Below are positions 17,834 to 25,167 of a DNA stretch of 64,000 nucleotides, in pieces. The notes below the pieces were generated by a model. That model saw only the letters and a program-made list of their open reading frames with translations. It searched no databases and was not told where the DNA came from. The stretch comes from Acidisoma sp. L85 (lineage in GTDB: Bacteria; Pseudomonadota; Alphaproteobacteria; Acetobacterales; Acetobacteraceae). The translations under genes and the position numbers were made by a program. Positions within the stretch are counted from its first letter, which is position 1. Each line of letters opens with the position of its first letter. The stretch spans positions 23,439 through 87,438 of the forward strand of contig NZ_LMUQ01000064.1 in assembly GCF_009765865.1 (NCBI RefSeq), written 5' to 3'.

Positions 17834-18774
17834 CGTCTCTCGCCGAGTTCCGCGTCGCCGTTCTCATTCCCTGCTACAATGAGGCCATCACCATCGGTGG
17901 CGTCGTCGCCGATTTCCAGTCCGCGCTGCCCGGCGCCCGGATCTATGTCTACGACAATAACTCCTCGGACGACACGGTGGAACACGCGCGGGCGGCCGGC
18001 GCCACTGTGCGGATCGAGCGTCGCCAGGGTAAAGGCTATGTCGTCTGCCGCATGTTCGCCGATGTCGAAGCCGACGCCTACGTCCTTGTCGACGGCGACG
18101 GCACCTATGACGCGGCCGATGCCTCCACCATGATCGCCTTGTTGCTGGACCAGCAGCTCGACATGGTCACCGGCACGCGCATCGAGACCGCGAAGGAAAG
18201 CTACCGGCGCGGCCATCGCTTCGGCAACCGGCTGCTGACGGGTCTGGTGCGCGCGATCTTCGGCAGCGGCGTCGCCGATATGCTCTCTGGCTACCGCGTC
18301 TTCAGCCGCCGCTTCATCAAATCATTTCCCGCACTCTCGACGGGCTTCGAGATCGAGACTCAATTCACCGTCCACGCCCTCGAACTCGACATGCCGGTGG
18401 GCGAGGTGCCGACGAGCTATAGTGAACGCCCGCTCGGCTCAGCCTCCAAGCTCCACACGTACCGGGACGGCTGGCGCATCCTGCGCACCATCATCGCCCT
18501 CGTGAAGGACGAGCGGCCGCTGCGGTTCTTCATGATCTGCGCCGCCGCTCTCGTGCTCTTCGCTTTGGCGCTAGGGCTGCCCGTGGTGTCCGAATTCATT
18601 CGCACGGATCGTGTTCCGCGCCTGCCGACTGCGGTTCTCGCCGCCTCACTGATGGGCGTCGCCAGCCTTTCCGCCGTCTGCGGCCTTGTGCTGGACTCAG
18701 TGCAGCACGGCCGCAAGGAAGCGAAACGGCTGGCTTATCTCGCGATCTCAGCCGCTAGTCTTCGATCAGACTAA
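17830..18774 (+). CDS. Glycosyltransferase family 2, dolichyl/polyprenyl-phosphate sugar synthase-like
   Basis: The 314-aa protein has an N-terminal GT2 domain (VAVLIPCYNEAITIGGVV, YVYDNNSSDDT, YVLVDGDGTYD, GTRIE) and conserved DMLSGYRVFSRRFIKSFP, as in DPM1-like enzymes that charge a polyprenyl phosphate with a sugar. Two C-terminal hydrophobic segments (about 232-255 and 268-292) anchor it in the inner membrane. The start is GTG 17830 inside the GTGA overlap; TTG 17815 is rejected. Its stop overlaps the convergent gene by 4 bp. Confidence 0.87.
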   Translation: MTSLAEFRVAVLIPCYNEAITIGGVVADFQSALPGARIYVYDNNSSDDTVEHARAAGATVRIERRQGKGYVVCRMFADVEADAYVLVDGDGTYDAADASTMIALLLDQQLDMVTGTRIETAKESYRRGHRFGNRLLTGLVRAIFGSGVADMLSGYRVFSRRFIKSFPALSTGFEIETQFTVHALELDMPVGEVPTSYSERPLGSASKLHTYRDGWRILRTIIALVKDERPLRFFMICAAALVLFALALGLPVVSEFIRTDRVPRLPTAVLAASLMGVASLSAVCGLVLDSVQHGRKEAKRLAYLAISAASLRSD

Positions 18775-20363: not shown

Positions 20364-21785
20364 GTGGAATCCTGGTCGAAAACGCTTTGGCCCAGTCGTC
20401 ATGGTTTGACGATCGTGTTTGTCCTCGCATTGGCCGTGCAGGTTCAAGCGGCCATGACTCTGCGTGGCCTTTATGCGGACGGGGCTTTCTTCGGCACTCA
20501 GATCCTGGCGTCTCGCGGCATCGATGTTTTCCAGCCGGCGCGCTGGGTCGGCAGCGTTATCCTGCAACTGCCCGTGGTGACCGCGATGGGCCTGGGGGTG
20601 CGCGGCACGCATAGGCTGATGCTGGCCTTCAGCCTCTCCACCAATCTGCTGCCTGGTCTCGGCTTTCTGCAGTGCCTGGCGATCCTGCCGAAGCTAGACC
20701 GACGTTTTTTCGTCTTCCCCGCCTTTGTCTACTTTGCCGGAACGCTCAGCGCCGGCTTTGCGAGCGTGACGGAGGGGCTGGTTGCGACCGCCTATCTCTG
20801 GGTGCTCCTGTGCCTGCTCGTCTTTGGGCGGAGCACGCTATGGCGGTCCCTCGCGATCCTGTCGCTCTCGATCGGCACGCTTCGCTTGCATGAGGAGGTG
20901 CTGTTTCTCGGCCCTATCCTCGCGGCGGCGAGCTACTTTCGTCTGAAGACCGAATCGCGCCGCTTCGATCGTGCCATCCTCGTCGTCGCGACGGTGGCGT
21001 TGCTGGGTGGTGCCGCGATCGGGGCGGCCGGAGTCGTTTTTCCCCGCTATGCGGGTGGACCCGGTGATTTTGCCTCGAACTTCTTGCACTTCCATTGGCT
21101 CTACGTGCCGGGAGCCGGCGTGAACCTGCCGGCTCTGCTCGGCATCCTGGCGGCGCTCGCCATGCTGCCAGCCATTGCGGTCCCCGCAATGGCTGGCGCC
21201 GCCTTCGGCGTCTTCACGGTGGTCGCCGCGGTGCTCTCCGTCGCGGCCTTCCGGTTCGACTGGCTGACTGTCCCCGCGGCGCAGTTCTTCGCGCGGGACA
21301 ACGCCGCCTTCATTTCCTTGGTTCTCATGATCCTCCTGCTCGTCGCGCGGCGTCATCCGATGCTTGCCGATCGGCTATTCACGGCGCCGCTGGGCGGCAT
21401 CGTGATGGCATTGGGTCTCGCCGTCAGCCTTTGGCACGTCTCCGCGACTGTAAAGTGGGACACCTTCCGCGAGGCTTTCGCTCAAAGATTGGCGGCCGAG
21501 ACGGGAGTCATCCCCTGGTCGCGGATGCTGATGCCACCGGGGTCGCGAGACGCGAAACTCTCCGCGATGATGGTCTGGCCCTGGACCAACCCGGATCTCA
21601 GCCTTCTCGTCCTGCCGCGCCACTGCGTGAGATCGATTATTGCCAACCCGCGGCCATCGAGCTGGCAGCCCTACAACCCCGCCGATCCGCGAACCATGCC
21701 CGCGATCCCGGGCATTAAATACGTCTACCTCCTGCCGCCGGATCACCAATCCGCGGCATGCGCCGACGCTCGATCAGCGCCCTAG
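20364..21785 (+). CDS. Polytopic membrane protein, paralogue 1
   Basis: The 473-aa protein has roughly ten hydrophobic segments. It shares an N-terminal block (LRGLYADG, then FSLSTNL, RRFF-FP and FAS) with the gene at 22623-24020, with which it is convergent across an insertion sequence. Both keep a conserved region near the C-terminus (MVWPWTNP here, RFSWPWTSG in the partner). The stop TAG (21783-21785) lies in the CTAG target site of the IS. Neighbouring glycosyltransferases suggest a role in glycan transfer or export, but no known motif is recognised. Confidence 0.72.
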   Translation: MESWSKTLWPSRHGLTIVFVLALAVQVQAAMTLRGLYADGAFFGTQILASRGIDVFQPARWVGSVILQLPVVTAMGLGVRGTHRLMLAFSLSTNLLPGLGFLQCLAILPKLDRRFFVFPAFVYFAGTLSAGFASVTEGLVATAYLWVLLCLLVFGRSTLWRSLAILSLSIGTLRLHEEVLFLGPILAAASYFRLKTESRRFDRAILVVATVALLGGAAIGAAGVVFPRYAGGPGDFASNFLHFHWLYVPGAGVNLPALLGILAALAMLPAIAVPAMAGAAFGVFTVVAAVLSVAAFRFDWLTVPAAQFFARDNAAFISLVLMILLLVARRHPMLADRLFTAPLGGIVMALGLAVSLWHVSATVKWDTFREAFAQRLAAETGVIPWSRMLMPPGSRDAKLSAMMVWPWTNPDLSLLVLPRHCVRSIIANPRPSSWQPYNPADPRTMPAIPGIKYVYLLPPDHQSAACADARSAP

Positions 21786-21800
21786 GCTCCGGACCCATAA
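21785..21800 (+). repeat. IS left terminal inverted repeat
   Basis: GGCTCCGGACCCATAA, pairing with the right end (GGGTCCGGACTCATAA on the minus strand) with two mismatches. It is preceded by CCTA, so TA is duplicated at both ends. Confidence 0.85.
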
Positions 21801-21855
21801 AGTTGTTGGAGCGACGCGGGCGCTGTGATCCACCCTTTCCTGCTGAGGGGAGAGG

Positions 21856-22613
21856 ATGATGGCGCAAGGGTTTTGGTTGAGCGATGCTCAGTGGGAGCGG
21901 TTGTCGCCGCTGCTGCCGAACAAGCCGCGTGGTGCGGCCCGGGTCGATGATCGACGAGTGATCAGCGGCATCGTGGTGGCGCTTCAATCGGGCGGGCGGT
22001 GGATCGACGTACCGGCCGAGTATGGCCCGCGCAAGACGCTCTACAATCGCTTCGTGCGGTGGTCGGCCAAAGGCATCTGGCGGCAGCTATTCGAGACCTT
22101 GGCCGCCGCTGGTGGCCCACCTGCCGAGGTACTGCTCGACAGCACCCACGTGAAAGCGCACCGCTGTGCTGCTGGAGGAAAAGGGGCTTCAGCGCCCACG
22201 CACTGGGCATCAGCCGAGACGGACGCACGACCAAGATCCACGCGCTAAGCGATGGCCAGGGGTGGCCGCTGGCGTTCCTGCTGACGGGCGGACAGGCAGC
22301 GGACTGCCGCGCGGCCGAAAGCCTGCTGCGGGGCCTTGCCCCATCCACTCTGGTCATGGCCGACCGGGCCTATGACACCAACGCCGTTCGTCAGCAGATC
22401 GAGAACCAGGGTGCGGTTCCGAACATTCCATCCAAGCGCACCCGCCGATGGAAGAGTTGCTTTAGCCCCGTGCTCTACCGCGGCCGCAACGCCATCGAGC
22501 GCATGTACTGTCGCTTGAAGGACTATCGCCGGATCGCGACCCGCTACGACAAACTCGCAGCCAATTTCATCAGCGCTATCTACCTCGCCGCAACCGTCAG
22601 CTTTTGGTTATGA
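21856..22613 (+). CDS. IS5-family transposase, made by -1 frameshift from two ORFs
   Basis: The first ORF (21856-22248, 130 aa) holds the N-terminal helix-turn-helix region and the first catalytic Asp in LLDSTHVKAHR. The second frame, open to 22613, carries ALGISRDGRTTKIHAL, the second Asp in MADRAYDTN, and the third-site RNAIERMYCRLKDYRRIATRYDK (the Y-R-E-K signature). A -1 shift at the AAAA run 22179-22182 joins them into a protein of about 252 aa. Programmed frameshifting is normal for the IS427 group, so this is probably functional rather than a pseudogene. A GGGGAGAGG ribosome site precedes the start. Confidence 0.85.
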
Positions 22614-22623
22614 GTCCGGACCC
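22608..22623 (-). repeat. IS right terminal inverted repeat
   Basis: TTATGAGTCCGGACCC on the plus strand, complementary to the left terminus in 14 of 16 positions and followed by TAG. The transposase stop (TGA at 22611-22613) lies within this repeat. Confidence 0.85.
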
Positions 22624-24020
22624 TAGCTGGCACACCCACCCGCCGCCGCGCGCGACTGGAAGGGTGATGGCCAAGTGCCCGGACGATAGGGATCCATCGG
22701 CTCCCAGCCGCCGGTAAAGGGGCTCGCGATGAGGGTGTGAATCTTGGGCTGCGGCGCCAGCACCAGGCTCATCAGCCCGCTGGTCCAGGGCCAGGAGAAG
22801 CGAGCGATGGCCTCGGCCTGCTTGGGCGGGAGCCGCCTCACCAACTGGGCAAGCGGCACCACGCCGCGCTCCGTCCGCAGCGCGGTCTCGAAGCCGCTGA
22901 TATAACCGCGCCAATCGCGTGTGGCACGAAAGTCGATCACGGCGAGAGCGAGAGCGAGCATCGCGCCTAAAAGGAGCGGGAAGGCGAGGCTCGTCGGCCA
23001 CCGCCCGGGGTGATTCGCCAATACCAGGCAAAGCCCCATCGCCGGCAGGCTGAGCAAGGCACCGTTGTTGCGGGCGGCAAAGGCGGCGGCGGGCGCCGCC
23101 GGCAATTCGCCTGCCGCGACGGCCACGGACGCACCCGTCGCCGCGATCGCAAAAGCCAGCACTCCAAACCACCGCGACGGCCGCCAGGACGCCAGCGCGA
23201 CAGCGGCGAGACCCAAAAGGCCCAACAAGGCCGGAACATTGAGACCCTGCTCGGTCGCGAAAAACCATCGCAGCGACAGCACATCGCTCACGAAGCTTGC
23301 TCGGTTGCCCGGCGTATGGGGAAGCAGGATGTAGCCCAGTTCGACCGCACTCGACAGCGCCAGCAAAGCCGCCACGACCAGCAGTCCTCGCTCATAGGGC
23401 GTGCCGACAAGCTTGCGGCGGCGCAGGCAGGTCGCTGTCAGGATCGGTCCGAGATAGGCCATCGCCTCATGCAGCCGAAGCGCGCCCAGGCTCAACACAA
23501 GGATCGCCGCCGCGTGACCGGGGGTGAGCGGCGCAAAACGCAGGAGGAAGAACAGCACCCAGGCGTAGGCGGCTGCCGTCGCGCCGTCCGCGACGCTCGC
23601 GAAGGCCGAACCCATCGAGCCGCCGAGGAAGACGAAGACCGGGAATAGGAAGAACCGCCGCTCAGTTTTGGGCAGCAGCCAGAAACACGTCGCGGTCAGG
23701 AGCAGTGGCACCAGATTGGTCGAGAGGCTGAACAGCAAAGCCACGCCGCGCGGGCTATCCAGCCCGAAAGCCATCCCTGCCGCGACCGGCGCCTGCATGA
23801 TGAATTGTGCTGTCCAGCGGGACGGTTCGACGATCGCCATGGCGCCATGGGCATAGATGCGCGCCGCATAGAAGACGCCATCGGCATAGAGGCCACGCAG
23901 CGCTATCCCGGCATCGATCTGCGCCGCAAAGAGCAGGCCGAGGCCCGCCGCGAGACACACCCAGCCGAAGGCTTCGAGCGAAATTTGTCGATAGCTTAGA
24001 AGCAGGATTCGATCCATCAC
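22623..24020 (-). CDS. Polytopic membrane protein, paralogue 2
   Basis: The 465-aa protein has about ten hydrophobic segments. It aligns along its length with the gene at 20364-21785 (LRGLYADGVFY, LLFSLSTNLVP, KTERRFFLFPVFVF, GSAFASVADG). Its TAG stop (22625-22623 read on the minus strand) comes from the IS target site. The family is not one I recognise. A role in the surface-glycan locus, for example as lipid-linked sugar transferase or export component, is inferred only from context and topology. Confidence 0.72.
   Translation of the reverse strand: MMDRILLLSYRQISLEAFGWVCLAAGLGLLFAAQIDAGIALRGLYADGVFYAARIYAHGAMAIVEPSRWTAQFIMQAPVAAGMAFGLDSPRGVALLFSLSTNLVPLLLTATCFWLLPKTERRFFLFPVFVFLGGSMGSAFASVADGATAAAYAWVLFFLLRFAPLTPGHAAAILVLSLGALRLHEAMAYLGPILTATCLRRRKLVGTPYERGLLVVAALLALSSAVELGYILLPHTPGNRASFVSDVLSLRWFFATEQGLNVPALLGLLGLAAVALASWRPSRWFGVLAFAIAATGASVAVAAGELPAAPAAAFAARNNGALLSLPAMGLCLVLANHPGRWPTSLAFPLLLGAMLALALAVIDFRATRDWRGYISGFETALRTERGVVPLAQLVRRLPPKQAEAIARFSWPWTSGLMSLVLAPQPKIHTLIASPFTGGWEPMDPYRPGTWPSPFQSRAAAGGCAS

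Positions 24021-24126: not shown

Positions 24127-25167
<1,041 letters not shown>

Follow-up and report, generated by a model that had tools for sequence, protein, structure and literature searches.

How can an insertion sequence sit on the stop codons of two genes and leave both proteins as they were? The question is raised by a 64,000-nt stretch of Acidisoma sp. L85 (NZ_LMUQ01000064.1, positions 23,439-87,438, forward strand), here called the window, in which an 839-bp insertion sequence (IS) of the IS5 family (IS427-like; 21785..22623, plus strand) separates two convergent genes, W1 (20364..21785, plus strand, 473 aa counted from the first start codon) and W2 (22623..24020, minus strand, 465 aa). 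We consider it quite probable that W1 and W2 formerly shared a CTAG as their stop, that a two-frame IS427-like element of the IS5 family inserted itself into its TA, and that surviving insertions of such elements are enriched near 3' ends.

The insertion and the two stop codons

The IS is bounded by two copies of a duplicated target TA (21783..21784 and 22624..22625). Its terminal inverted repeats (left, 21785..21800, plus strand; right, 22608..22623, minus strand) read GGCTCCGGACCCATAA and, in reverse complement, GGGTCCGGACTCATAA, with 14 of 16 positions identical. The TAG stop of W1 (21783-21785, plus strand) is composed of the target TA and the first IS base G, while that of W2 (complement of 22623-22625, minus strand) is composed of the last IS base C and the second TA. 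By direct reading, W1 ends in Ser-Ala-Pro-stop and neither frame contains an internal stop. Excising the IS together with one TA yields a single CTAG in which the stops of W1 and W2 overlap in TA. The initial annotation had placed the IS exactly at a CTAG stop common to two convergent genes and held that neither protein was altered, and both points were borne out, since both TAGs can be read directly and both genes stop in place. The CTAG it had seen flanking both ends is present as letters, of which the left G and the right C are IS bases and not part of a CTAG repeat. CTAG is scarce in the window (37 seen versus ~207 expected from base composition). A second convergent pair with stops overlapping in YTAR (CTAA, 18771-18774) lies 3 kb from the IS and is uninterrupted.

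The transposase is encoded in two plus-strand frames, orfA (21856..22248; DUF4096, PF13340) and orfB (21999..22613; DDE domain, PF01609), which match the first and second part of the NCBIfam model NF033580 (transpos_IS5_3) with 113 and 144 bits, respectively, both above the cut-off of 110. The orfB frame is -1 relative to orfA, the run GGAAAAGGGG lies inside their overlap, and an A-run followed by a G-run is found at the frame overlap in all nine relatives aligned there (11 offered). From the sequence we infer that the transposase may be produced by frameshifting between orfA and orfB. The transposase TGA is part of the right inverted repeat and is separated from the end of the IS by 10 bp (window 22611-22625), so that the stops of the transposase and of W2 are at most 15 bp apart. 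The length of 839 bp (group ~0.8-0.9 kb), the overlap of the two frames with its frameshift motif and the 2-bp target duplication, TA, are traits of the IS427 group; placement in this group rests on such features, whereas the IS5 family assignment comes from NCBIfam. IS630 belongs to the IS630/Tc1-mariner family, whose transposase family differs from IS5; this family was rejected, as no IS630 model was among the listed matches and NF033580 was the sole NCBIfam model above its cut-off. The closest copies include those of Plastoroseomonas, Roseomonas, Gluconacetobacter, Acetobacter and sphingomonads. The genome of strain L85 itself holds one full IS copy plus partial or diverged copies, and a second relative (L010) which was unmatched by the end finder and stands outside all counts. 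Elsewhere, a 399-bp element (L136:2972-3370) has ends like those of the IS (14/16) and flanks CCA/TAG; it is possibly a miniature derivative or an internal deletion of the IS.

Target duplication and regeneration of stops

Among 78 distinct related insertions detected by a paired-end finder in loci L001-L224, TA was present on both flanks in 75 and missing from at least one side in three. The sites of the 75 were CTAG (46), TTAG (12), CTAA (10), TTAA (5), CTAC (1) and one cut by a contig end. The initial annotation had allowed for a duplication of either TA or CTAG; TA stands, while a 4-bp CTAG duplication is ruled out, since the 27 insertions at TTAG, CTAA and TTAA are flanked by TA with no four-base repeat. 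With TA as the duplication, the third letter of the stop has to come from the IS, whose own G directly follows the duplicated TA on either strand, and any TAA or TAG stop within a YTAR target therefore becomes or stays TAG. Neutrality is thus not special to CTAG. The finder demands ends starting with GG, which makes the constancy of the terminal G a matter of construction; the TA flanks are not. At two minus-side stops (L063, TTAG; L194, TTAA) the codon was TAA before insertion and is TAG now. In the proposed mechanism, the two-frame element would have inserted in the TA of the CTAG forming the overlapping stop of W1 and W2, the TA would have been duplicated with an IS terminal G placed after it at either end, and the protein would have remained unchanged on both strands, making insertion at a stop silent. 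Duplicated TA plus the element's first base offers a simple geometric reason for a harmless target preference.

A preference of this IS group for CTAG, also part of the initial annotation, was confirmed: 44 of 77 insertions lie at CTAG compared with 146 of 608 control YTAR sites outside called genes (p=9e-9). Beyond YTAR, nothing strong was seen as a target motif in the insertion flanks; G is apparently avoided just after CTAG (3/37), and a few other positions are slightly above null. The transposase would accordingly favour YTAR, and CTAG above all.

Enrichment at stop codons

The 78 insertions of the first set were reduced to 62 usable ones by removing 11 with a flank of <600 bp, the three without TA on both sides, the CTAC site and the one cut by a contig end. 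A replication set analysed with frozen code gave 17 insertions and, minus one already seen and one without TA, 15 usable ones, 13 of them from a single genome (G467). Genes were called with a home-made caller, which found 380 genes in 463 kb of the L85 genome and classed 82% of it as coding. A first gene model, which gave 15 stops among the 62 YTAR insertions and a double-sided stop at L221, was replaced by an order-4 model under which L221 is single-sided. Insertions were classed flank by flank and compared with controls from intact sequence or from the same flank-wise procedure, and the excess at stops appeared in both.

In the first set, 17 insertions were at a stop, 41 intergenic and four inside genes. 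The corresponding numbers for the remaining YTAR sites in those loci were 37, 536 and 131 with the same procedure and 37, 463 and 204 in intact sequence, and those for the 463 kb of the L85 genome 66, 592 and 450. Restricted to CTAG, the first set divided into 13 stop, 22 intergenic and two inside, compared with 20/99/65 in the same loci (stop vs intergenic, p=0.018) and 26/158/156 in the L85 genome (p=0.0028). The replication set gave three stop, eight intergenic and four inside compared with 27, 280 and 187 for its controls (stop vs rest, p=0.052; stop vs intergenic, p=0.074) and is weak when taken alone. Pooled, insertions numbered 20/49/8 and controls 48/560/263. The pooled excess over all YTAR was kept at four gene thresholds (p from 4e-6 to 2e-7), while the pooled CTAG-only excess ranged from p=0.078 at the loosest threshold to 0.001. 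Stratified by tetramer, stop versus intergenic gave a Mantel-Haenszel odds ratio of 3.3 (p=0.00014). With one insertion per genome (56 groups; genome labels were assigned manually and a few relatives may remain unmerged), the median was 17 stops (p=2.7e-6; CTAG only, p=0.007). One of the 20 stop cases (L236) also has a cut gene on its other side.

Double-sided stops were found at the standard threshold in the window and in a TetR/YceD pair (L173), that is in 2/44 CTAG insertions versus 1/223 control sites (p=0.071) and in 2/77 YTAR insertions versus 1/871 controls (p=0.019). An occurrence above chance is suggestive, the numbers being tiny. The initial annotation had proposed overlapping convergent stops as safe havens. 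Enrichment at stops as such agrees with this idea (20/77 versus 48/871), whereas two firm cases are too few to establish a preference for convergent shared stops.

The stop-site genes look real. Eight of ten scanned stop-site proteins scored above a Pfam cut-off. Two domains reach the last residue, DUF481 (L221 plus side, 332/332) and K_trans_C, the K+ transporter C-domain (L079, 222/222), and others end 10-67 residues before it, namely HemN_C (L202), CarD (L095), YceD and TetR (L173), CMAS (L078) and NTP_transf_5 (L187). In this Pfam scan the L221 minus gene matched no family and L063 gave below-cut-off matches only. The CDS annotated by the depositor of plasmid AP026900.1 stops on the first IS base. 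Of 12 plasmid loci analysed, eight had both ends found and none is among the 77; by the home-made caller one of the eight insertions is at a stop, in agreement with the depositor's annotation, and seven are intergenic, including one (L271) a few bases beyond an annotated stop. Plasmid locus L265 probably represents the same insertion as L019.

Target preference for CTAG alone could produce such a pattern by coincidence, with stops struck only as often as CTAG occurs there. CTAG outside genes is indeed already stop-rich (20/119 in the loci, 26/184 in the L85 genome), and none of the seven CTAG insertions of the replication set was at a stop. We nevertheless regard coincidence as unlikely, as CTAG insertions not inside genes were at stops in 13 of 39 cases versus 24 of 146 controls (p=0.025) and insertions at other YTAR sites in seven of 30 versus 24 of 462 (p=0.0014).

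Active targeting, in which the transposase or its complex would sense gene ends beyond YTAR, for example through a terminating polymerase, a terminator structure or supercoiling between convergent genes, appears quite improbable. It would fit the convergent setting of 11/17 stop insertions compared with 36/100 control stops (p=0.033; for two more control stops no neighbour was called) and the persistence of the stop excess within the CTAG stratum. Against it stand the flanks, with no strong motif beyond YTAR, and the position of intergenic insertions, 9/32 of which lie within 50 bp of a 3' end versus ~31/376 same-loci controls (p=0.002), as selection predicts; compared with the L85 genome the control value is ~76/415 (p=0.17), both control counts being approximate as they were back-calculated from fractions. 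Further, insertions inside genes were depleted in the first set (4/62 versus 131/704 controls, same procedure, p=0.014), while three of the 13 insertions in multi-copy G467 are inside genes, making up most of the 4/15 in the replication set. That insertions are depleted within genes and lie close to 3' ends speaks for passive survival rather than for recognition of stops, and in our reading the element prefers YTAR/CTAG and selection filters its insertions. Those within genes would be lost and the survivors concentrated at or close to 3' ends, with the window as a double-sided case. A broader proposal, that IS427-type ends regenerate stops and make gene ends, single or shared, a built-in safe haven whose use is possibly actively biased, is tentative and in our judgement doubtful.

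In genome G467 (L225-L236, L259) the ends of an IS427-like element were matched 15 times; its 13 usable insertions, of 852 bp each, form a natural set well suited to work on targets.

Plague (2010) is said to have found an excess of IS between convergent genes. Placement of bacterial IS has been described as non-random relative to gene orientation, with 3' regions as non-disturbing places; the part of that paper available to us contains neither exact stop codons nor regeneration of stops by an IS end (PMC9208149). The IS427 group of the IS5 family in Paracoccus (ISPpa2, IS1248, ISPaes1; 832-865 bp) resembles the 839-bp IS in size, in the 2-bp repeats (10/11 IS427-group rows in trap-plasmid work) and in the overlapping frames and frameshift motif of some members; this likeness is by published description, and the available portion of the source makes no mention of stop codons (PMC3281130). 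As excerpted, a report on MITEPsy1 of Pseudomonas syringae gives CTAG or YTAA insertion sites, comparable to the CTAG of the IS, but the element is 100 nt long, non-autonomous and, according to its authors, flanked by a 4-nt duplication (PMC3189936). IS630 shares the TA in CTAG as target, judging from the title of Tenzen and Ohtsubo 1991 as cited in PMC2170065. Four-base CTAG repeats, reported for a mycobacterial IS5-type element in the excerpt available (PMC9241763), count against a TA-only duplication. No paper on stop regeneration by an IS end was recognised in the open-licence PMC literature, which is weak evidence of absence with subscription papers mostly outside it. The 839-bp IS itself is ordinary; the stop-regenerating geometry together with the enrichment is a modest, testable addition. 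The notion that IS occupy harmless places thereby becomes a prediction exact to the base, open to testing in public annotations and by unselected transposition.

The convergent genes and their relatives

W1 and W2 are paralogues (39% identical) for which no Pfam or NCBIfam family was found. W2 adjoins a gene at 24127-25146, which we take to be ilvC. Three of 59 other genomes contain one W1 homologue each, and none of the 59 has an uninterrupted W1-W2 pair. In three same-genus relatives (L277-L279) the homologue is nearer to W2 than to W1 and lies at or near an ilvC-like gene. Its convergent partner differs from W1 and is placed differently in each (12-bp overlap in L277, gaps of 6 bp in L279 and ~290 bp in L278), and these stretches lack separate counterparts of W1 and of the two genes preceding it.

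That W1 and W2 once ended elsewhere and the IS made their stops is very improbable, even though the left TAG does contain the IS G, since the C before the left TA and the G after the right TA mean that both TAG stops predate the IS, the W2 tail beyond the last aligned block measures 21 residues versus 21-25 in its homologues, and protein lengths are alike (473, 465, 462 and 441 aa for W1, W2 and homologues, leaving out L013, where the longest frame is not the homologue). The W1/W2 homologue at L013:1501-2760 (genome G002) carries one in-frame TAA and may, as far as its sequence indicates, be a broken copy.
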